Source: Tipula vernalis (taxonomy: Eukaryota; Arthropoda; Insecta; Diptera; Tipulidae). Taken from it: DNA of 64,000 bases. Shown here piece by piece: positions 2,218-45,930 of this stretch; the stretch's first letter is position 1; every line of letters starts with the position of its first letter. Position numbers and translations under genes: made by a program. Where the stretch lies: contig OY282558.1 of assembly GCA_958295665.1 (NCBI GenBank), forward strand, positions 461,068,995-461,132,994. The letters run 5' to 3'. The notes beneath the pieces are model-generated. The model ran no database searches, was not told the DNA's origin, and worked only from the letters and a program-made list of their open reading frames with translations.

Positions 2218-3268
2218 TTATGATGAAAATTTTCTGGCCAATGATTTTTTTGAAATTTTACCCGACATCCACTTTTTTCCACGCCCGAAATACTTGGCGT
2301 ACACAGCTTGCCCTGGATAAAACTTTGACGTTGTTTTACAATGCTGGTGTTGTGGAATCGGTACTAAGGCAGATATTATGGTACGAGGCTGTCGTCCATG
2401 TAGAAGTTCTGCTGGCGATTTTCCACTGGATGGATCGGGTGTAGCCCTATATGTCTTCAGGTATTTTAAGAGTGCTCTTTGCTGATTATTCTCATCTGCC
2501 ATGATTTTAGCGAAAGATGATTTAAATTTCCGGACGAATCTTTCTGTTTGCCCATTTGAGGCAGGATGAAATGTAGCTGACGTCAGATGCTGACATAAAT
2601 TGTGGACCATTATCTGACACTATGGTTACTGATAAACCCTCAATTGCAAAAATTGACTGAAGTGCCTGCACCGTGGTAGCTGCGGTGGTATCCCTTAACT
2701 GGATAGTGTAAGGAAACTTTGAAAATGTGTCCACGCAGATGAACCACATTCTACCGAAAAAGGGACCTGCGAAATCGATATGGATACGTTCCCATGGATG
2801 TTTCGCAGTAGGCCAACTGGAGTATGTCTTCCTTGGATCACTTGCATTTGACTGGCACACTGCACAATTTGACACGACACGTTCTATTTCCTTGTCAATA
2901 TTTGGAAACCAAACATGTCTCCGAGCTACCTGTTTCATTCTTGTTGAACCCCAATGACCATCGTGTAGAAGTTGAAGTATTGTAAACTGGACTGCTTTTG
3001 GAATAACGACTCGGCTGTGTTCTGTTTGAAGTAGAATACAATTTGACTGCAATGATAAAGAAAACTTTCGATAAAAAAATGGGGTAATCGCGCTATCCGC
3101 CTTGGAAAGATCATTTGGCCATCCGTCTCGGATGAAACTTGAGACCTTTGACAACACAGGATCGTCAATTGTCGCCCTAGCGATCAACAACGAATTGATA
3201 GGTAATTCGTCTAAAGCCATTTGATTTATCTGGCCCACGTTCGTCAACTTTTTTTTCGTACTCATCAA
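2218..3268 (-). pseudogene. Integrase fragment of gypsy Pol, frameshifted
   Basis: The first frame (3268-2522) carries the HHCC zinc-binding domain, visible as HWGSTRMKQVARRHVW followed by CAVCQ, and then the integrase core with first acidic residue in IHIDFAGP and second in VSDNGPQF. The reading then continues in another frame (2610-2218), where NGQTERFVR supplies the conserved Glu region. The overlap at 2522-2610 marks a frameshift inside the catalytic core, so the enzyme would be broken. Integrases of this kind join retroelement cDNA to host DNA. This copy is a fossil. Confidence 0.85.
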
Positions 3269-13526: not shown

Positions 13527-16348
13527 CTATAGATTATTAAGATAATTCACGCATTCCACCCTAAACGTGTCCAAACGTGTCAAACATTTAATATGTGTTG
13601 GAATAGTATTCCATAGCCTAGCACCTCTCCTTATAAATGACCCTTTCATATAATTGGTGCGAGTGTTTGGCAATATTATGTTTTGTGTCCGTAATGACTG
13701 AGCAAATACAAGCTTATGATATATGTAGATATTGAGGTTGACGAGTTGTAATAATTTTTTACATTAAAACTAGAATTCTAAGATCAAAATAATTCTCCAA
13801 AGAGCATCCAAAAATCTTATTATAGTAAGGTGTCAATCGATCCCTGCGTTTCAATCCAAAAATGTATCTTAGGCATGAATTATACACTCTTTTAATTTTG
13901 GTAAATAAGCAAAAACTTAATTCGGAGAACACCACATCACAATAAAACAGATTACTAAGAATTAAAGATCTAGCTAACAGCATCCTGACCTTGATTGGAG
14001 TAAATGCAGAGATACGCCAAAGCATTCGCAGCCCATTGAACATTTGCTGCATAATAGAATTCACATGCACATTCCAATCCAAGTGTTTATCCAAGGTCAC
14101 ACCCAAATTCCTTACAGATTCACTAAAAGGTATATTGTCATTACCAACTCTAACAGAAGTTAAGTCCACGTCATAAGTAAAAGGATTACGCTTCTGGGAA
14201 AACATAATCACCTGGGACTTTTTCGAATTTAATAACAATTGATTCTCCGCCGACCACTCAATAATATTATTAATATTCCTGTTCATATATGCAATTACTT
14301 CATTAGTAGCTACCATTCTATCACAATTATCAATCTCAATTTCCCTAAAAATTTGGAGATCATCCGCAAACAAATGATAGTGAGAGTGTCGAATAGAACT
14401 TCCAATATCGTTTATATACATTGTAAATATTAAGGGCCCCATAATAGATCCCTGGGGGACACCAGTAGGCAGAGGCAAATAATTAGATTTAACTCCATTA
14501 ACTTCAACAAATTGAAAGCGATCAGTTAAATAAGATAACATTAATTCCGACGCATTAGATGAAAAACTGAAGCAGTTTCTCAATTTATAACAAAATTTAA
14601 CGAATGATATACAGTTAAAAGCTTTACTGAAATCAAGTAGACATAGCAGGACATAATTGCCCCTATCCAAGCAGCTCCTAACAAATTCCATCAAATCCAC
14701 TAACACCGTTGCAGTACTATGTCTTTCCCTAAACCCTGACTGCTGAGAAGATAATAAGTTACTTGTATTAAGGTATTGTTTAATCTGGTCGGAAATAATT
14801 CTTTCGAACACTTTTGAAAGAACTGAGAGTTGAGCAATAGGTCTCACATCAGACACTAATGCAGGCTCCTTAACTTTAGGTAGCCCAATAACTCTACTAA
14901 CTTTCCACACTTTAGGATAATATTGATGTTTCACAATACTATTAAACAAATACGTTAAATGAGGTACAATCACAGGAGCTATAATTTTTAAAAATCTTAG
15001 CGGCAAATTGTCAGCACCCATTGCATTAGACGTTAGAGAGCCTATTGCTTTAAGAACATCGTCATCAGACATAATATTAAAATTGAAGCAATTAGAGTTA
15101 TTAAAAGAGGTCTCAGTCTCCGAATGCTGCACCAGATTCATTATTGGCACTTTAACAAACTCCTCATTAAGCTCATAAGGAGAAAATTTAGAAACAACCT
15201 CAGCTGAATCCTAGGTTTTAAACCCATATTTGTCCAAATTCCTCCACAATAATTTAGTGCCAAGTTTGGGATCCAACTTATCACACAAAAACTTTCTCTT
15301 AGCCGATCTCACCATCTTATTAAGTTCTTTTTCATAACATTTGTAGGTTCGTTTGTCTTCCTCACAACGAGATTGTTTCCATACATTTTTTGCCATATCA
15401 ACAAGTTGTTTTTTATTTTTAATAGCATAGCTGAACCATGGGATATGCTTGATTGTTTTCCTAATCATTTTAAAGGGAGCATACTGATGCAGCCATTTCG
15501 AGATTTTATCATATAAAAGCTCAAACTTCCCATCAATTGTATCAAATCTACTCAATTCAGTCCAATCAACATTAAGTATATCACAATGAAGGCTGGGAAC
15601 ATCCTTATTATCGTAGTTGCGCACAAACTTAATCTCATCATTGAGTTGAACCGGTATGTTAAAGTCAATTGATATAAGATCATGATCAGTGAAGGATGAC
15701 TGATGAAAATTAGATGTTTCAAATTGGGTGTTAGAAACAATGTAATCCAGAAGTCTTTCAGTAGTATCACAAACTCTTGTTGGTTGAGTTTGCGTTGTAT
15801 GCAAATTAAGTGAATCAAAGATATTTCTTAATTCACGGCTTTCAACCCTGCCTAAAAAATCAATATTAAGGTCACCCACCAAAATAACCATATCAAAATC
15901 CACAACTAAATTAGACAACAGCTCACTCAATTCATTAAGAGGAAGGTCCCAAACATGCATATAAGCAACACAAACAACTACATATATTTAAAGAATTAAT
16001 ACTAAATTCAATTGTTAGATACTCTAAAGTCTCAGAAGAACCCTTTGAATGTATCTTCACATGATAATATTTAAAAAAGTCACTACGTACATAGAACGCA
16101 ACTCCACCACCTTTTCTTCCCACTCTATCATTCCTGAGCAACTTATACCCATCTATTTCAACACTTTTAAAAGTATGCGATGATTTAAGATTTGATTCAG
16201 ACACTCCAATAATGTGATGGGAAATGTGCTTAAATTCCATTCTCAATTTATCAATATTCGCCGAAACACTACGCGCATTAATATGAGATACTTTCAAGCA
16301 ATTTATCGCTAACGGGGAAATGCTAGGTAAACTATTAAAAAAGCTCAT
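13527..16348 (-). pseudogene. LINE ORF2: endonuclease and reverse transcriptase, broken
   Basis: The likely start is ATG at 16348. The N-terminal third is an APE-type endonuclease (INARSV near the start, GVSES, RKGGGVAFYV, then GDLNIDFLG and the FTDHDLI motif). The reverse transcriptase follows, with PKVWKVSRVIGLPKV, LDFSKAFNCI, GVPQGSIMGPL and the catalytic FADDLQIF, then the C-terminal segment up to the TAG at 13529-13527. Lesions seen: a frameshift near 15950-15980, an in-frame TAG at 15213-15211 between endonuclease and RT, and a frameshift near 13760 in an A-rich run. The polymerase block 15150-13759 is itself open. The enzyme nicks target DNA and primes cDNA synthesis there. Confidence 0.85.
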
Positions 16349-16726: not shown

Positions 16727-17638
16727 TTATTTTTTAAATTGAGCCAATTCTTCTACAGATCGCACAATTTTCGGTCTATCATTAGCTACCGCAATAATAG
16801 CTACCATACCTCTTCTTATAACCACATTTGATACCATACCCGCTGTTTTCATCAACTTCGCTTTAGCTAGAATGTCCTTGGCTTCCTTAGACAGATATTC
16901 ATTGATGTATATCCTCGATTTTGGAAATTTGTCATCAATACATGTTATCCATAATGGTTTATCCTTTAAGTACTTAAGATAAGTAGCCATAAAATGATTG
17001 CTCTTCAACTGCTTGAACCTTTATAACTGACGGACCTCCACCATTCTTTCTATGTATCCTAAAAATATCCTAGCATTAAAGTTATGTACACCCATCTCAA
17101 CAGCAATATTTGTCAAAAATAGGTGATCATAAATGTTGACCGTATCTGGAATACCGTAAAGCATCAACACCCTTTGATTTTTCCACTCATCCCGCCTTTT
17201 ATAAAGCTCAAATTGCTTCTCAAGAAAAACAATCCTTTCCACCAATTTCGATGTTTCAGATGACAAACTCGCCTTCACATCAGCTATGGCATTATCACAG
17301 TAACTAGTAATTTTCGGCCACATCGCATTCAATTGCTTTGATACCCAATTCTCAATATCATCCTTATTCCCTAGTTTATCCTTCTTAGCCTCAGCATCTT
17401 TAGCTTTGATCAAGCCAGCCAGAACTCTAGTGAGGTTACTGTCCGCAATGCAACGTGGACAAAACCATTTAGCTTTTGATTTAAGATGTTCAAATTCCAC
17501 ATCCGTTTTGACATCGACACATTCCGAATGGAACCACTTCAAACAGCCATTACAATTCAGCTGCAGCCAATTTTGCTTATGCATAGAAGACTTAGGCTCA
17601 ACTTCTTTTTTGTTACAAATTGCACATTTCTCGCCCAT
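16727..17638 (-). pseudogene. LINE ORF1 protein with PHD-type zinc finger, one nonsense codon
   Basis: ATG at 17638 opens a frame whose first 70 residues form a C4HC3 PHD-like finger: CAIC near the start, NCNGC, WFHSEC and WFCPRC. A helical, charged middle follows, probably coiled coil, as in LINE ORF1 proteins that bind element RNA and multimerise. A TAA at 17023-17021 interrupts the frame after 205 codons. The same frame then resumes without a shift to 16727, giving a C-terminal domain with YINEYLSKEAKDILAKAK, like the C-terminal ORF1 segment of CR1-type elements. A single substitution therefore explains the break. Confidence 0.8.
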
Positions 17639-22500: not shown

Positions 22501-23994
22501 AAATTAAGTGGTTGTGGAAAATTTATTAGAATTTTCATTTAACTTAATATTACATGTTTAAATTGAAAAAGTAATTTGTGTATTATTACTTACTGTAGTA
22601 CTGTGCTGCAAATGTGTCTCTTCTCTTCAACGTTGTTTAACGTTTGATGATCATTTTAAAAAATCTTAATTCTATTGATTTAATTATGGTGGGGGAAGGG
22701 GGCTGGGGAAGGATGAGTTCATCCTTAATTATCGATTTTTTTTTAAAGAATTGGCTATTTTAGTGCAAACCAAATTTAACATTCAATTAATATGTTTGGC
22801 AAGCTCTCGCATTTCAAAAAAAAAATTTAAACTTTAATTCTTTAATTGTAAAAGGCAATAGGCAAGAATAGAACGAAAGGGCAACAAAATGGGGCAAACA
22901 GTTAAGTATTAAGAAGAATCTGTAAAGTAAATGCAGAATTATGCAGAGTACAATTCTGACAAATTAGTTTTTAATGTTCTGCTATTATATTTAGTTAACA
23001 AGTGTGATATATCTCTTTCGATGGGTTTTGTTTTTTGAGCCATGAAACCGAAATCACATTTCTTAACTTTTTATACCAATTCGATACAAAAAACGAATAA
23101 AATGAGAAATTTGCCATTGAACCGAAATCCGAATATACAGATCACTTAGATTTAAGTGATTTTATGTAAGAATGTCTAAAATTCGGTTAAGCAAAAATGA
23201 GCTTATTATACAACATATAGTACGCAAGTGCATGCAGAGACCATATTGTATACGATAAAGAACAATTAAAAAATTTTACACTACGACATTCTATTAATAT
23301 TAGAGACAAATTTAAAGCTTCGGCCTAATTTTAAGGACAATATTTATGATCTTGTCAATTTTAGGATCGATAAAAATATATCATTTTTACTGTAGGCAGA
23401 TGAAATGATTTAAACCATAACATAGTTTGAATAAAAAAATTAAATTACAGGGCCCACAAGATTAAGAAGTGGTTTGCTTAGAGTAGAAAGAAGAAGAGAA
23501 CCGATGATAACTATACAAAGATGTTCTCAGTTACAATATTCAGCACACAATTAGGAAAGGACGTCCTGGAATTTGAACTTCGAATAGTGATTCAGAATGG
23601 GAGTTGAAACCTCAAAAACATTTGCTCGTAAGCAGAAAGCGGGATAGAAATCTAACCGAAAATAGATCAAAACCCGTCATAATGCAACAGAACGTAAGAG
23701 TATTAAGGGCTTTGAATCTCGAAATGCAAACTTCAAATATAATGGCGAACGTTTTCACCACCGAAAATGGTTTATCTCAAAACAGGTGGACAAATTTTAT
23801 TGAGACAAAATCCTGTCCCAATAAATTTCGTCCAACTGTATTGAGATAAATCATTTTCACTTGAAATTAGATGTTGATATTTTAGTTTAAACTGTTTGGT
23901 GATAAATCATCGAAAAGCTTAAGTGTAGATGTGTTGTTCATATACGTTGGTTGGTACTCTAAAATCAATGGCTTGCCTAGTATGCCTCATAATC
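19558..23994. other. Non-coding DNA
   Basis: AT-rich throughout, with a (GT)n microsatellite near 22207-22232 and several poly-T tracts. The sequence just after 19557 may be the 3' end of the element that supplied the RNase H relic. No exon with plausible splice sites was recognised. Confidence 0.45.
22207..22232. repeat. (GT)n microsatellite
   Basis: A run of GTGTGTGAGTGTGTGTGTG, almost pure GT with one GA interruption. Confidence 0.85.
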
Positions 23995-31807: not shown

Positions 31808-33059
31808 TTGGCTTTGGATCAACAAAGATGCAGTGAACTGGCATCCGTGTTGAACGACAGTAACCTCACGTTGAGCCTAGATGCTATAAACGTACCAGGT
31901 TCCAATAAGCGACTATATTGTGACGTCTTTAATGGTAATGTTCGTCCTTACGTTACGTCAAGATTCAGGACTACGGTAATCGAGGGTGTCCATAATCTGT
32001 CACATCCGGGAGTGAGGGGTACCCAGCGCCTAGTGCAGGAAAGATTCGTGTGGAAAGGCATGCGTAAAGACTGTCAGATGTTCGTAAAAAATTGTGTGGT
32101 GTGCCAACGATCGAAAGTCACCAAGCACAATCGATCAGAAGTTCTAACAACTGTGCCACCAAGCCAACGATTTGATCATATCAACGTTGACTTAATTGGT
32201 CCATTGCCAACATCAGGCGAGTATAATTATTGTCTTACCATAATCGATCGTTATTCAAGGTGGCCCGAAGCAATTCCAATCCCGAACATGACGGCAGAGA
32301 CGGTGGCTAAAAACTTAATTTCAGGACGGTTCTCACGGTTCGGAATTCCGAAAATCATCACGACAGACCAAGGTCGACAATTCGAATCGAGTTTGTTTCA
32401 CGAATTGTCTAAACTACTAAGTATCCAGCATATTAAGACAACGAGTTACCACCCACTTTCGAACGGATTGGTGGAAAGATGGCATATGGCATTGTATCAT
32501 GTGTCATCAAACGCCCGATTGGTCAGCGGTTTTGCCGATAATATTACTTGGTCTGAGATCAACGTACAAACCAGACATCAATTCTACACCAGCAGAGATG
32601 CTGTATGGGCAAACGTTACGACTGCCGGGGCAATTTTCCGAAAGTGATGATAAGACGACGATGCCGCAGTCAGAGTTCATCAGCAGTTTTCGCGAAGCAA
32701 TGACTTCCCTGAGGCCAACGAGTAGTACGCATCATTGTAAAAACGACATTTTCCTACATAAGGATATTCATCGGTGTACTCACGTCTTTGTAAGACACGA
32801 TGCTGTTCGCTCAGCTCTTCAACAACCTTACGATGGTCCGTTTGAAATTATTAGGCGTCATGAAAAGTATTTTGTCATTCAGCTAAACAACCGAACTTCA
32901 AAAATATCAATAAACCGGTTGTTGTTGTTTGTTCTTGATTTATTTTTTACCGTCCTACTTTACGCCTGGAGTAGCCAAATCGAGGACGGGCGGCTACAGA
33001 TCCGTTCTTTGAAAACCTGGAATTTTGATGTACATCCATTTTCCCATTATTTGCGTTAA
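31808..33059 (+). pseudogene. Gypsy integrase, frameshifted
   Basis: The first frame (31808-32647) shows the HHCC finger ([13 protein letters not shown] followed by CVVCQRSKV), the first catalytic Asp in [10 protein letters not shown], the second in [10 protein letters not shown] and the conserved Glu in SNGLVERWH: a complete D,D,E set. Directly after VERWH the sequence loses a few bases, and the continuation is in another frame (MCHQTPDW...LLGLRSTYK...[10 protein letters not shown], running to 33059). The break near 32490-32510 separates the core from the C-terminal DNA-binding part. Start and 5' partner domains are absent. Confidence 0.85.
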
Positions 33060-33600: not shown

Positions 33601-33721
33601 GCTTTTTTACCGAAGATGAATTGAACGCTCAAACATCAACGCAGTCGGCGAGCCATCAGTTGCCGTCAGCATTAACGCAGTCATCGAGTCAACAGTTACC
33701 ATCGCAACCAATGCGATCAAC

Positions 33722-33875
33722 GAGCCGATTTAGACGTGTTTTCTTGCATCAGTTTCTTTCCTCGTTTCTTTACCCCTCTCTCTACAAAAATATGACCTTC
33801 GAAATCAATTTATAGTGAGAGGGGTAAAGAAACGAGGAAAGAAACTGATGCAAGAAAACACGTCTAAATCGGCTC
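33722..33875. repeat. Perfect 59-bp inverted repeat with 36-bp loop
   Basis: Arms 33722-33780 and 33817-33875 are exact reverse complements (left arm starts GAGCCGATTTAGACGTGTTT). The 36-bp spacer is unrelated. The left arm continues the frame of the gypsy Pol-like tail (STSRFRRVFL), so the right arm looks like an inverted duplicate of element sequence. The absence of any mismatch suggests a recent event or active homogenisation. Confidence 0.85.
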
Positions 33876-34000
33876 AATGAGTCATAGCTCTGAGGCACTA
33901 CAAACACAACCGCATCCTAGTAGCTCATATAGTAATAATACGAGTTGAATTGTATAATTTTGTTTTTATAATACCGACTTTCAGTCTGGCGGCGGAGTAA

Positions 34001-35092: not shown

Positions 35093-37749
35093 ATGAACGG
35101 TCTAAGGTAAAGTAAATTTTCTTCTCCCCACTATATTGTGTCTTGTGTGTGTATGCGTGGAAAACCCTTTTTCTTCTGTGAGTTCATTTAAAAAAGGAAC
35201 ATTCTCCATACACAATATGATTTTTCTAATTTTTTTTTATCATGTTCCGATTATTAATTTTTGTGATACCATGCACTGGCTCATTTTCTTGTTTGTTTTC
35301 CACCGTCTGTGTTATATAAATTGTTTGTATTTTTTTTAATGTTTTTGCAAATAATTATCGGTTTCTGTTAATGAACAACACAAGAATACAATTTTTTTTA
35401 TCATGTCTATCGTGATTTTGTATATAACAAAGTTGTGCTACAGTCGCGAGCAATTGAGGTGGGGTGGTAGTTGTTTTGCTAAGACTTGGCTGGATGTTCG
35501 AATTGGGCGGAGATTATTTGGCTACTAAAATAGGTTAGAAGGACCTCCATCGTAATAGTGCCGTTGTTGTTCTTGGCAATATCAACATGTATGTATTTCG
35601 ATTTTATTTATTGATTTCGTTACAGAAGACTGCAAGTGGATCTTGTGGCTTAAAATAGTGTCTGTGTCTTGTTAAGTATTCGTATAACTTTTTGAGTATG
35701 ATAGACAATTCGTAATAATAAAAAAGATTCCTTTTAAATAAAATTTGTCAACATATTTCGAGCTCTCGAAACTCGTAATACGAGAGATACATAATCGCAC
35801 CCCTGGTACTTGAGACCAAATTTGCTAATTATAAACCTCGCACTGCAGACAATAATAAGGATGAGCTTGAATAATATTCTCAGTAATTCAACATTATTCT
35901 GAAATGTTTTATGGGCAGATTCACCTCAATCTCAACAACTCCTTTCCACTCAAATTTAACTTAAATTTAGTTCGTATAAATTTGGTGCTATTAAAAGTTT
36001 GGATGACATGGGAACAGTTAAAATTAGTGTTCAAATACAATTCAAACCACATTCAGAATTGATTCTTCAGAGTTCGAACCTACATATATCACATTGCATA
36101 GTAGTTTTGTTAATTGTTACAAAATTCTTATAAAAAATTCCTTTTTTTTCTTCCATTACGATGTAAGAATGAAAATGCCCCCTGGCCTTTCTTTATATGG
36201 TAAATTGGAAGTTTTTTCTTTGTCACAATTTTCACGTAAAATAATTGTAGTTTTTGTGATAATTGGATGACATGTGATTACATAGATAATTGGATTTTTA
36301 GTACTTATTTCTCTATTGACTCGACATAGTCGAATTGTATTGCTTGCTACTGTACCTTACACGCTAATATTTAATACATATTTGCATTGAATATGATATG
36401 ATATACTTGATAAACAAACAAAAAAAAAAATATAAAAAAGCGAAAATGAAATATGATCTAATTAATTAAGTTATCTAACAACAAAAATATAAGAAATTGG
36501 AAATTTATACGTTTTGCAAGATAATCACGATTACTTTATTAAATATTTTTTTTCAACGCTATGTAGGATTTAGTGGTGGACACAATATTGGTCGTTGACC
36601 TGCAGAATTAATTTATCTGTGCATTTTGCTCTCTATATTTTCAGTTTTAGTGAACTCTGCTGTCTCTTCTGTTGTCCCCCATGCCCAGGGCGGATAGCAG
36701 CCAAACTAGCTTTTCTACCACCAGAACCAACATACAAAATAACTGCTGAAGATGAACAAAAAACAAAATATCAGATACATTTAAATGAACGAGCCGAATG
36801 GCAATATTCTGAAAGGGATAAAGAAAACTTGGAAGGATTTTTAACAAGAACGGGTCGTGGCAACTCGATCACCTGCTTATACATAAAATGTTGTTCGAAT
36901 GCCAAATATACGATTCTCTTCTCGCATGGTAATGCCGTTGATCTGGGCCAAATGAGTAGTTTTTATTTAGGCCTAGGGGCTCGTATCAATTGTAATATAT
37001 TTAGTTATGATTATTCTGGGTATGGAATGAGTGGTGGGAAACCGAGTGAAAAAAATTTGTATGCTGATATAGAGGCGGCATGGTTGGCGCTTAGATCTAA
37101 GTATGGAATACCGCCTGAAAATATTATACTTTATGGGCAAAGCATTGGGACGGTGCCTACGGTGGATCTGGCGACACGTTATCAAGTAGGCGCCGTAATA
37201 TTACATTCCCCGTTAATGTCGGGTATGCGTGTGGCATTCCCGAATACGAAACGAACATGGTTTTTTGACGTATTTCCAAGGTAATTGATCAATATTTTCC
37301 TCGAAATTAATTAATCTCTAATGATTTTAATTTTCTTTAGCATTGATAAAGTGTCAAAAGTGAAATCTCCGGTGCTAGTGATCCATGGGACTGAAGACGA
37401 GGTGATAGATTTTTCGCACGGTCTCGGTATATTTGAGAAATGTCCAAAGGCTGTGGAACCATTATGGGTCGAGGGTGCTGGTCACAATGACGTAGAGCTT
37501 TTTAACCAATATCTCGAGCGGCTTAAAAAATTCGTAACAATCGAGTTACATAAGAAACAGGCGACCGCGGGAGACGAACTCAAAAAAGGGGGCAAAAATA
37601 ATGCAGACGACCCGGATAAGGGTGTCGACAGCAAAAACAATAAAAATTCTAAAACGGACGAAATTAAAACATCCGAATCCAATCCAGATGATTTAAATGG
37701 ATCGACGATTAGCTCAATTACAAGTTCAGCAACAGAACAATTGCTATAG
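35093..37749 (+). CDS. ABHD17: ABHD17-type protein depalmitoylase (alpha/beta hydrolase)
   Basis: Coding exons 35093-35106, 36645-37280 and 37341-37749 join in phase to 352 codons ending in TAG. The 14-nt first exon gives MNGL plus two bases. With the second exon this yields [20 protein letters not shown], the conserved family N-terminus whose cysteines are palmitoylated for membrane anchoring. Donors AG|GTAAAG and AG|GTAATT and acceptors TTTTCAG and TTCTTTAG are good. The triad is visible: Ser171 in GQSIG, Asp236 in HGTEDE, His265 in GAGHND. Family members remove palmitate from proteins such as Ras and synaptic scaffolds. The hydrolase ends near residue 290. A 60-residue Lys/Asn/Asp/Ser-rich tail follows, longer than vertebrate homologues of about 290-310 residues. 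The stop is followed by a very long in-frame extension (separate entry). Confidence 0.93.
35107..36644 (+). other. First coding-region intron of ABHD17
   Basis: A 1538-bp intron from GTAAAGT to TTTTCAG. Apart from the dispersed repeat at 35771-35910, I see no feature. Confidence 0.85.
35771..35910. repeat. Dispersed repeat, copy 2 (shared with 25751-25850)
   Basis: Its first 27 bases differ at one position from 25751-25777, and both copies share ATTCTGAAATGT further on. This copy lies inside the first intron of the ABHD17 gene (35107-36644). Confidence 0.55.
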
Positions 37750-37755
37750 CAGTTT
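37747..37755 (+). promoter_or_regulatory. Candidate leaky stop codon: TAG CAG TTT
   Basis: The stop has C at +4 and CAG TT after it, close to the CAR-YYA context that promotes UAG suppression in tobacco mosaic virus. Only the sixth base differs. Insects are known to use C-following stops for readthrough. A 571-codon open frame follows. Confidence 0.55.
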
Positions 37756-39465
37756 GGGCCCGGCCCCAGTGCTATCACAAATCCGCAAACGACGAGCACT
37801 GATGGTCAGGCCCAAAAAATTAACTCGACAGCAGCATCAGCAATAAAATCACCAATAAAACCAGTCGCAGCTCCACCACCACCGGTTGTTATACCGGTTA
37901 GTCCGAATTACAGTGCAAAAAGTCGAACCGCTACTGCGGCAACATCGACGACGAGTTATACGAGACGGATTATAGCAGGCCATGGCAATACAGTTCTTGT
38001 AGATATGGATTGTACATGTTCGAGTGGGCGCCGATTGAAAAACCATAATCGCCATTCGAAAACTGATGAAAAGATGCAAATCGTACAACCAACAGTGCAA
38101 ACGGAACAGCCGACTGATAATCGAGAAAAATCGAGAGAGTGTGAGAAAAAGACAAATTGTGCGTCCACCTCGACATCGACTTGTACTTCGGCGTCTACTC
38201 AAACGCAACCCAAGAAAAAGGTAACGCGGTGTGTCGGTACAAGCCCTCAGATGGAGATTAAACATCGGGATGTTAGTCCATTGCGGAAGGCACACTTAAG
38301 TCCCATGAAGAGTGTTGAAAAGGATCCACAAAATAATCGAGTGCTCGAGAAATCTAATTCGCTGGGCGAAAATAAACCACAACGACCGCTACGAACAACT
38401 CGAAGCCTTTCACCAAGACCACCGGTGAAACATCAGACCGCAATCACAGTTTCGGATGAGAACGACATTGTATCGGTTAAGCTATCTCCGAACGATGCCG
38501 ATTTTGAGGATGTCTTTAACCAGAGACGTGAACGACTACCACCGTTTAGTGAGCGAGCATCCCCAAATTTATCTGAAATCATCATGTTTAAAGGAAGTGA
38601 CAGTCATTTAGTGTACGTTCCCACAGATCCGTGGCTTAAAATGCCCGACAATATGCTTAAGAAGCAGGCCGGCAATATTGAAGATCCATGGGTGTGGCGT
38701 AGCACAACCAATATTGTGGATGAGAAAAAGAATCCGTCGCGAAAGGGGGTACTCGTTCGGGACGATAAAATATGGAAAAGTACAACAAATGTCATGAGCA
38801 ATGAGCGGGCTCGTAATCCCAAGCAGATTGCATATCGTCAGACAAAATCGTTTTCCTGTAAAGATAATGAGGAACTGTTTGGCGGAAAGCAGCTAAAATT
38901 GATTACAGGAAATATGGAAAAGGCTGAGAAAAAACCTAAGCTGCAGCGGTCCAAGTCACCAGCACCGCCACCACCACCTCCACTAGCAGACGACTACGAT
39001 TATGATATTCCTCCACCGCCACCCGTGCTTTCGCCTCGCCATTCACCAAATCATAAAAAATTTACCACCGTAATACCCGTAGGTGTTCTTGTCTCGCCAT
39101 CTCATATTGGATCTGCGCGTGATTTACCTCCAATTATCATCAAAAGCAACACACTAAATCTTCCAAACGTAAATTTATTACAGCCTCGTCATTCATTTTC
39201 AACGCCCACCGCTCAAAAAGATGATGAGCTACAACTAAATATTCGCCGCCTAAGCGAACAAATTCGTTATAATCCGGCTGCATATTTATCATCTCCATCA
39301 CCGGAAGCAGCCGCATCAACACCAGTCATTATCGCTGCGGCAAACATGAAATCAGTAGTAGCAGCGGCCGCAACAAATTTACTTGTGACAACAACAACTA
39401 AGACGCAGTTAACTGGTAGCAATAGTAAATTAAATTCAGATCCAATGTTGGAGACAACTTGTTAA
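37750..39465 (+). CDS. In-frame extension after the ABHD17 stop: readthrough tail or downstream ORF
   Basis: Starting at the codon after the TAG at 37747-37749, the same frame stays open for 571 codons to the stop at 39463-39465 with no intron needed. The product would be largely disordered: Ala/Pro/Thr/Ser-rich, a Cys patch (DMDCTCSSGRRL), poly-Pro runs (PAPPPPPPP, IPPPPPV), two DPW tripeptides (38626-38634 and 38683-38691) and a repeated W[RK]STTN (38695-38712, 38773-38790). The base composition is clearly more GC-rich and codon-like than the flanks, so it is coding. The first ATG is at 38005, 85 codons after the stop, and the 85 codons before it look equally coding-like. That favours readthrough over a separate cistron. 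I know no homologous domain. Confidence 0.8.
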   Translation, partial: QFGPGPSAITNPQTTSTDGQAQKINSTAASAIKSPIKPVAAPPPPVVIPVSPNYSAKSRTATAATSTTSYTRRIIAGHGNTVLVDMDCTCSSGRRLKNHNRHSKTDEKMQIVQPTVQTEQPTDNREKSRECEKKTNCASTSTSTCTSASTQTQPKKKVTRCVGTSPQMEIKHRDVSPLRKAHLSPMKSVEKDPQNNRVLEKSNSLGENKPQRPLRTTRSLSPRPPVKHQTAITVSDENDIVSVKLSPNDADFEDVFNQRRERLPPFSERASPNLSEIIMFKGSDSHLVYVPTDPWLKMPDNMLKKQAGNIEDPWVWRSTTNIVDEKKNPSRKGVLVRDDKIWKSTTNVMSNERARNPKQIAYRQTKSFSCKDNEELFGGKQLKLITGNMEKAEKKPKLQRSKSPAPPPPPPLADDYDYDIPPPPPVLSPRHSPNHKKFTTVIPVGVLVSPSHIGSARDLPPIIIKSNTLNLPNVNLLQPRHSFSTPTAQKDDELQLNIRRLSEQIRYNPAAYLSSPSPEAAASTPVIIAAANMKSVVAAAATNLLVTTTTKTQLTGSNSKLNSDPMLETTC

Positions 39466-39952: not shown

Positions 39953-41129
39953 ATAAAGTTTTGTAATGGGTCCCCAGTTTATTCATTTTACTAATTTATT
40001 TCATTGAAAATCAACCAATATAATTAATTATTTAATCTACATATACAAAAAAATACATTTATTTTGTTATATAGTCGATAAATAATAAATAACACAATAA
40101 ATAAAAATTAATTAAAAACAAAGAAATTATAAAGATTTTTTTTTTGATTAGATAAAGAATTATATTACAAAATATTTAAGTAAATTAATAATACTAGATA
40201 ATATTAAAAAAATTTATAAAAACAAAAATAAATTTCGTTTGTGAATTTAATTAAATTAATATGTACATTGAAATAATGAATTGAAGCAAAAAGAAAGAAA
40301 ACACGTTATTTCGTCTTCCCATATGTATATGCGATATATGATGGCAGCACGTGGTTAATTATTGTGGTCCGCCGTTTTAATTTGGCGTTTGATGTTAAAT
40401 TAATCATGACAGAATGGCCTACATTATATATTAATCAATAATATTTATACTATAAAACAAATTGTGTATTATTATAAATTACCTACATTAATTTTGATTT
40501 TAATAGTTTTTGTGTTTGTCATTTCTAAATCAAAATACAGTTTTATTTATTAATATTAATTATTAACTATTTTAAATGAATTCTATTGCAATTAAATTAA
40601 TATTAATACATAATTATTATTAATTTATATTTCTCTTTTGTAAAGAGAATTTGAACAAACAAAATCAATTTTTTATAGGTTATAAAAATAAATAAAACAA
40701 AGAAATTATTACAGTACATATACGATTTATAGATTGTTTTATAATATCATTATATAACACAAATAATAACGAAATAGTAAAAAGGGCGGTTTAAAATATT
40801 ATTAAGATGTGGTCTCGCCGCCATCCTGTTCAGTATTTTATTTTTTGCAATTTTTGCGTTTACAATAATTTAAGTTTTCTTGCCCTCGTTTTACAATACA
40901 TACAGTTAAAATACAAAACAAAATATTAATTATTATTATAATTGTAAAATTGATGATCTTAAAATTCTAATGTAATTTTGTGATTCCAGAATTTAAGAAG
41001 AAATATACATAATATATTTAAAAATTCGTGAATAACAAATAAGTTTGTGTTAATTTTATTTTTCAGTGGAAGCACAAACAATTAAATTTGTAAGTTACAC
41101 ACCTAAAGATTTCCAAATTGCGTGGTCAT
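39953..41129. other. Non-coding, nothing recognised
   Basis: Very AT-rich sequence between the ABHD17 3' end and a LINE scrap. I see no exon, RNA gene or clear element. Confidence 0.5.
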
Positions 41130-44955: not shown

Positions 44956-45795
44956 CTAACTATCGAATATTAGTGAACTAATATCGGCATGTTTTAAATC
45001 ACAGCTTATCACTTCCTTATTTGTTTGTTCGATACTTGAGAAACGTCGATCTTTTTTTGATGCCAGCATCGATGACAGCTCATCGATACGTACCTGCTTC
45101 ATTTTAACCATATTCTCAAGATGCTCACTCTTTTGCGTTAATATAGCGATGGCTTGATTTTTTTCACGCACCATATCCTCGAGCTTCTCATATTGTGAAT
45201 ATAAAATCATTTTTTGGGGTACTTCAACCACTTGATGGTTAATTTTACGTGATACATTCACAGTCATTACGTCAGCTGGAAACAACACATTCTTTCATTC
45301 AAAATACATAACAATAAATCAAAACTTACAATTTTCAAATTCTTCACTACGATCTTCTGAACTGTCCCGTGATGTCTCCATATAAATTCTATGCTTCGTC
45401 ATTATATCGTGCAATAATGATTCAATGAGGCCAGGTACTCCTTTTGATATTAGCTCCATCGTTTTGAAATTGATGGGCGAATGAATTTTCCGCAATATTT
45501 TACGATTCAGTGTATTCCAATTTTCCATTTTTAAATTGAATGAGCTGCACGATTGATAATTATGCAATTCAACTATTTTGGGATACAAGTGCTTAAGGAT
45601 TTCGGCCAACAATAGGCCATCGGCAAAATCGCGTGGTAATTTTTTACTTGGCCGCGACAATTCAAATTTATCTATCCACAGTAGAAGTTCTTCGGTTTCT
45701 TCAAATGTTAGTTCTCGAATTTTTGTGAAGTAGGAAGCTTTCACATTCGTTGATTGATTTGATGAATTTGTTGATAATGAATTTTGATTCTCCAT
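44956..45795 (-). CDS. SPEF1: SPEF1/CLAMP-like calponin-homology microtubule protein
   Basis: Two exons, 45795-45330 and 45275-44956, join in phase across a 54-bp intron (donor AATT|GTAAGT, acceptor TTTCCAG) to give 261 residues. Residues about 30-140 are the single divergent CH domain of the SPEF1 family: LLLWIDKFELSRPSKKL, RDFADGLLLAEILKHLYP, VELHNY, NWNTLNRKIL. This domain binds microtubules, and family members bundle them in the central apparatus of motile cilia and in sperm flagella. The second exon encodes a coiled coil (about 183-230, with heptads in YEKLEDMVREKNQAIAIL). I chose the ATG at 45795 because a Ser/Asn-rich lead follows it. An in-frame upstream non-ATG stretch to 45930 is open but hydrophobic and unlike the family. 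Close to the usual 230-260 residues. Confidence 0.9.
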
Positions 45796-45930
45796 TATTT
45801 CGGACGTGGTTATGATTGGGGTTTTAATTGCTGGGGTAGGAATCTTCTTGTAGAAAATTTTTTTTAATAGAGCTAAAATATAAAAAACTATTTTACAAAA
45901 ACAAAAACTAGTTCTAATTTCGCACCACAT

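Follow-up and report, generated by a model that had tools for sequence, protein, structure and literature searches.

The hydrolase gene and the open frame beyond its TAG

The 64,000-nt stretch of Tipula vernalis contig OY282558.1 analyzed here (hereafter the window, with positions counted from its first base) carries a three-exon hydrolase gene model of 352 amino acids which, as seen from joined-frame translation, closes at TAG 37747-37749, the stop codon whose possible readthrough is considered below. The hydrolase part of the locus is composed as follows, with all splice scores obtained from a generic matrix and not from MaxEnt:

35093-35106, plus strand: coding exon 1, MNGL plus 2 nt; donor GTAAAG with a score of 7.0, in the top 1.8% of GTs
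36645-37280, plus strand: coding exon 2, with the N-terminal cysteine cluster and the nucleophile motif GQSIG; Pfam Hydrolase_4
37281-37340, plus strand: 60-nt GT-AG intron; donor score 7.55, acceptor score 6.52
37341-37746, plus strand: coding exon 3 up to the stop, containing the HGTED and AGHND regions as well as a hydrophilic tail of 62 residues
37747-37749, plus strand: UAG stop, proposed to be leaky, followed by CAGUUU

The hydrolase is a predicted depalmitoylase of the ABHD17 type. Exon 2 alone scored 29.9 bits for Hydrolase_4 (Pfam cut-off 27), which places the protein in the alpha/beta hydrolase family; moreover, the N-terminus is cysteine-rich and the GxSxG nucleophile motif GQSIG is located at residue 169, as would be looked for in ABHD17. 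An N-terminal cysteine cluster has been described for ABHD17 depalmitoylases (PMC4755737). The predicted protein resembles the human enzymes in being an alpha/beta hydrolase with such a cluster and a serine nucleophile, whereas no long C-terminal extension is described for the latter in the available part of that source (PMC4755737), unlike the candidate discussed here. A PDB search with the hydrolase returned six distant sequences, none of which is called ABHD17, the best one with an E value of 1.8e-8 over approximately 90 residues, and no relative was confirmed when prokaryote contigs were scanned with exon 2.

Past the TAG the same frame continues open for 571 codons, from 37750 to TAA 39463-39465. 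The first in-frame ATG of this extension is located at 38005, with 85 codons preceding it and 486 codons running from it to the end:

37750-38004, plus strand: pre-ATG stretch of 85 codons, in coding phase
38005-39465, plus strand: rest of the extension, ending with TAA 39463-39465; two DPW, WxSTTN twice, proline runs and the C-terminus ETTC

Within 37750-39462 the other two plus-strand frames contain 26 and 48 stops (summed over two pieces). An open run of 85 codons arose by chance in 1.9-2.8% of simulations based on the composition of the extension and in 0.3% of those based on the composition of the whole window, while a run of 486 open codons was obtained in none of 2,000 simulations. The extension was not assigned to any Pfam family (best DUF1924, E 0.81) and found no counterpart in PDB (single match, E 0.89); likewise, no relative was confirmed in viral contigs scanned with its 486-aa part. 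Two AATAAA hexamers are present within the extension on the plus strand, at 37842-37847 and 37854-37859, approximately 93 and 105 nt past the TAG, and early polyadenylation at these signals could give rise to an mRNA for the hydrolase only.

Coding phase ahead of the first downstream ATG

Coding phase between the TAG and ATG 38005 was scored with a model for which the hydrolase and the open reading frame (ORF) body served as training data; this is a single-genome measure and not PhyloCSF. Frame 0 of 37750-38004 scored +13.7 bits as compared to -28.8 and -24.1 in the other plus-strand frames. This score was reached by none of 20,000 first-order resamples, the 629 stop-free ones included, and the maximum among 60 overlapping noncoding windows flanking the gene was +2.1. 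It remained positive when the model was trained on the hydrolase only (+13.8) or on the body only (+9.5), and frame 0 was best in all five 51-nt blocks of the stretch, the first of them being weak. GC content by codon position additionally backs a coding phase before the ATG (permutation P = 0.00065). The measure is not free of misses: of five 255-nt windows taken from the ORF body one had a score of -1.0, and with the body-trained model the hydrolase received -0.2 bits in its true frame as compared to -102 and -130 in the other two plus-strand frames. The opposite strand does not account for the signal, the best reverse frame of 37750-38004 scoring +3.5 bits; a 148-codon reverse ORF at 37849-38295 was rejected as its source, as the reverse frames score lower both in this stretch and in the ORF body. 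Two further lines of evidence were dropped, namely a GC step, the largest of which is found at 39978, away from the ORF end, and RNY codons, which did not single out the frame.

By these single-genome measures the second ORF in the same frame behaves as protein-coding, and a coding signal is present already ahead of its first in-frame ATG, as is looked for in readthrough genes. Four claims of an earlier note on this DNA are in accordance with these results: that the hydrolase ends at the TAG with 571 further codons open, that the readthrough product would comprise 924 residues (352 + 1 + 571 = 924), that coding character is present on both sides of ATG 38005, and that the 85 coding-like codons count against a plain second cistron.

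The latter point concerns a dicistronic mRNA, in which the 486-codon ORF would be started internally at ATG 38005 through an internal ribosome entry site or reinitiation. This ATG carries G at both -3 and +4. The fly gene CG33096 has CG33095 as neighbour in number, as split dicistronic annotations often show, but nothing links CG33095 to the ORF described here. CG33096 is named as the fly relative (PMC3506735) and CG33095 appears in a mass-spectrometry list (PMC5617222); moreover, dicistronic pairs are common in flies, with 159 in release 6.04 (PMC4528330). Contrarily, a dicistronic call requires a negative coding score ahead of the ATG (PMC5100048), and although that score is comparative and ours is derived from a single genome, the 85 codons in question continue the hydrolase frame without a stop and score positive, so that the noncoding interval expected between two cistrons is not seen. 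Furthermore, two out-of-frame ATGs are located in 37750-38004 and 27 ATGs in the hydrolase coding sequence (all frames, start included). Internal initiation is therefore considered improbable.

The stop codon and the predicted RNA hairpin behind it

Three features are present together at the stop: C at +4, a predicted hairpin at +7 to +70 and CAGCAGCA at 37829, the latter two being listed here:

37753-37816, plus strand: RNA hairpin from folding, with a 14-nt apical loop; proposed readthrough stimulator
37829-37836, plus strand: 8-mer CAGCAGCA, its sole plus-strand copy in the window

Readthrough genes of Drosophila and Anopheles are enriched for CAGCAGCA and for a C directly behind the stop codon (PMC5100048). 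The bases at +4 to +9, CAGUUU, agree with the motif CAR-YYA at five of six positions, the last base being different. Leaky UAG codons of the CAR-YYA type, as present in plant viruses, share with this locus the UAG followed by CAG-UU, whereas here the sixth base is U instead of A and a hairpin is present. Selenoprotein recoding was rejected, since it needs UGA and the stop here is UAG.

The predicted hairpin spans 64 nt, begins at the fourth base past the TAG and is made up of 21 pairs (8 + 4 + 7 + 2), with a mean pair probability of 0.92-0.95 in three contexts. The first 100 nt past the stop fold at -31.2 kcal/mol (z -4.21), a value matched by none of 200 shuffles. The fold of the first 67 nt (-29.8) was matched by 3 of 10,000 dinucleotide shuffles and by 3 of 10,000 synonymous recodings for the same protein. 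When 67 nt were folded behind each of the 8,193 stop trinucleotides that the two strands contain, this value was matched only at the TAG discussed here and on the reverse strand of the hairpin; these were also the only two matches among the 82 stop trinucleotides of like GC. Within exons 2 and 3 and the extension, 4 of 2,695 windows of 67 nt matched, starting 0-3 bases past the first post-TAG base. A folding window of 60 nt truncates the long stem of the hairpin. On the minus strand over the hairpin, Rfam snoR9 scored 23.5 bits as compared to a gathering score of 90, which was taken as chance.

These values bear on two explanations in which the TAG would not be a leaky stop. If the locus encoded a long ABHD17 protein in which the TAG is a recent nonsense change, a polymorphism or an assembly error, one base change would suffice to create it, and a 601-bp query found a single place in its own genome. 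A chance stop is, however, not expected to be followed immediately by the 67-nt hairpin that is strongest in the coding span, nor by C together with CAGCAGCA, and we regard this explanation as very improbable. A-to-I editing of UAG to UGG would likewise restore the frame and could draw on a hairpin adjoining the stop. The UAG itself is nevertheless outside the hairpin, and in a 253-nt fold its U and A form part of a four-base loop on top of a stem of five pairs. A stop placed in this manner is a poor editing substrate, and the likelihood of editing is considered negligible.

Readthrough supported by a stem-loop has been reported before. In Drosophila, readthrough of the dfr/vvl (drifter) UAG is governed by the bases at +4 to +9 together with a stem-loop located at approximately +9 to +59, of which stability and distance matter but not the sequence, and six further predicted stem-loops raised readthrough in a reporter (PMC13170385). 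The locus described here resembles dfr/vvl in having UAG and, as a prediction, a stable stem-loop just 3' of the stop, at +7 to +70 as compared to +9 to +59. The two differ in gene and stem sequence, the stem here overlaps +7 to +9 and carries a 14-nt loop, and readthrough is reported for dfr/vvl (PMC13170385), whereas here it is a prediction from sequence. Predicted structures were found for 9-10% of readthrough candidates as compared to less than 1% of other transcripts, and TAG was over-represented among structured candidates of Drosophila (P = 0.0006), whereas for Anopheles the difference did not reach significance (P = 0.18) (PMC5100048). Like the conserved readthrough genes of Drosophila and Anopheles, the locus has a coding-like second ORF that continues in frame, a C directly behind the stop codon, a predicted structure in the next 100 nt, CAGCAGCA and a long extension of low complexity (PMC5100048; PMC4528330). 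Those genes were defined mainly by alignments of many species, whereas the candidate described here is based on single-genome measures. The extensions of fly and mosquito readthrough genes span from 4 to more than 1000 aa, mostly 8-300 (PMC4528330), so that an extension of 571 aa is above the usual range and below the longest.

Taken together, it is likely that the hairpin behind the UAG lets a fraction of ribosomes read through to the 924-residue form. We propose that the hairpin would be encountered by the ribosome with UAG positioned in its A site and would hinder termination, as reported for the dfr/vvl UAG, and that a near-cognate tRNA would sometimes be used at UAG, inserting an amino acid so that translation goes on. 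The majority of ribosomes would still halt at UAG and release the 352-residue enzyme, while the predicted minor form would gain a proline- and serine-rich, mostly hydrophilic tail. The readthrough proposed in the earlier note is strengthened by the hairpin at the fourth base past the stop, whereas a frame-fitting acceptor at 37770 leaves splicing open; of the CAR-YYA motif which that note had placed after the UAG, the C following the stop and five of the six bases were found, but not the full motif, since the sixth base is U.

Alternative splicing is the main and serious rival, although we consider it unlikely. Here, an acceptor downstream of the stop would be joined to donor 35106 or 37280 and the TAG skipped, the acceptor being 37914 or the following:

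37770 (first exon base), plus strand: possible alternative acceptor, score 6.86 as compared to 8.19 and 6.52 for the model acceptors

This acceptor belongs to the top 2.6% of AGs, with a score close to that of the weaker acceptor of the gene, and the frame remains open as far as 39465 whichever of the two donors is joined to 37770 or 37914, both of which are in favour of this rival. Moreover, the distance from the TAG to 37770 is just 20 nt and therefore too short for a coding-phase test. On the other hand, with 18 AGs in 37752-38005 the chance that one of them falls in the top 2.6% is approximately 0.38, the tract of acceptor 37770, TTGGGCCCGGCCCCAG, contains interrupting G runs, and 37715-37768 is devoid of a YTNAY branch motif. 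A join from 37280 would additionally remove the exon carrying the HGTED and AGHND regions, and alternative splicing gives no account of the hairpin. Splicing at 38003, immediately ahead of the ATG, was rejected, since the frame is lost with either upstream donor (score 2.34).

Several further observations weigh against readthrough. The window length of 67 nt was picked after the hairpin had been seen. With windows of 100 nt, an equally good fold is obtained at 61 of 2,662 coding-span positions, which lie close to the TAG or at a single site within exon 2; over the whole window and both strands, 16 distinct places, including the hairpin itself on either strand, reach the same 100-nt energy, and after GC correction 120 places reach its level. 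The 14-nt apical loop is outside the 3-10 nt of the screening rule for stem-loops, which 1,012 Drosophila genes pass, 50 of them with other signs of readthrough, and UAG is less leaky than UGA (PMC13170385). CAGUUU lacks the final base of CAR-YYA, and the first block of the extension, i.e., the 17 codons beside the TAG, scored only +0.4 bits, so that coding directly after the stop is unproven. Given the proportion of 50 in 1,012, a stem-loop alone is weak evidence, and the case for readthrough rests on the hairpin, the coding phase and the open frame together.

Literature text on ABHD17, CG33096, CG33095 and palmitoylation combined with readthrough contained no report of readthrough for this gene. 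As far as literature text shows, supplementary gene lists aside, the locus thus appears to be a new candidate among the established cases of fly and mosquito readthrough. If readthrough takes place, an enzyme of palmitate turnover would join the genes under stop-codon readthrough control, with one of the longer extensions, and UAG-C followed by a hairpin at +7 would represent a compact cis-element. It would also suggest that a strong hairpin at a stop can help to back a readthrough call made from a single genome.

The predicted tail and other features of the window

According to a charge/hydropathy proxy, extension residues 86-571 are on the disordered side, whereas residues 1-85 are not. The C-terminus ETTC fits a class I PDZ pattern. 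Two DPW motifs are located at extension residues 293 and 312; at least two DP[FW] were present in 26 of 20,000 shuffles. As DP[FW] was chosen once the sequence had been read, and several patterns were searched for in all, DPW represents a lead only. In epsins, DPW binds the AP-2 alpha ear (PMC6912373), and the paired DPW of the extension would suit such binding and could tie the enzyme to endocytic sites. A UAG stem-loop acting as a two-form switch, with the DPW tail docking the depalmitoylase on AP-2 clathrin-coated pits and the readthrough rate setting the site of depalmitoylation, is conceivable but rather doubtful. Beside the two DPW motifs, W-[RK]-STTN occurs twice, 26 residues apart (38626-38790, plus strand), which resembles an internal duplication.

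The window contains several features apart from the hydrolase gene:

33717-33880: inverted repeat, arms of 72 nt with 94% complementarity, spacer 20 nt; site of the lowest folding energy among all 100-nt windows scanned
23763-23858: inverted repeat, arms of 45 nt with 87% complementarity, spacer 6 nt
45319-45930, minus strand: ORF of 203 aa with the CH_2 domain of sperm proteins (E 2.4e-29)
13759-15150 and 17021-17638, minus strand: non-LTR (long terminal repeat)-like element with a reverse transcriptase ORF (RVT_1, E 2.1e-28) and an upstream PHD-finger ORF
2525-3268, minus strand, and 31808-32644, plus strand: integrase pieces of LTR-type elements (Integrase_H2C2, rve)

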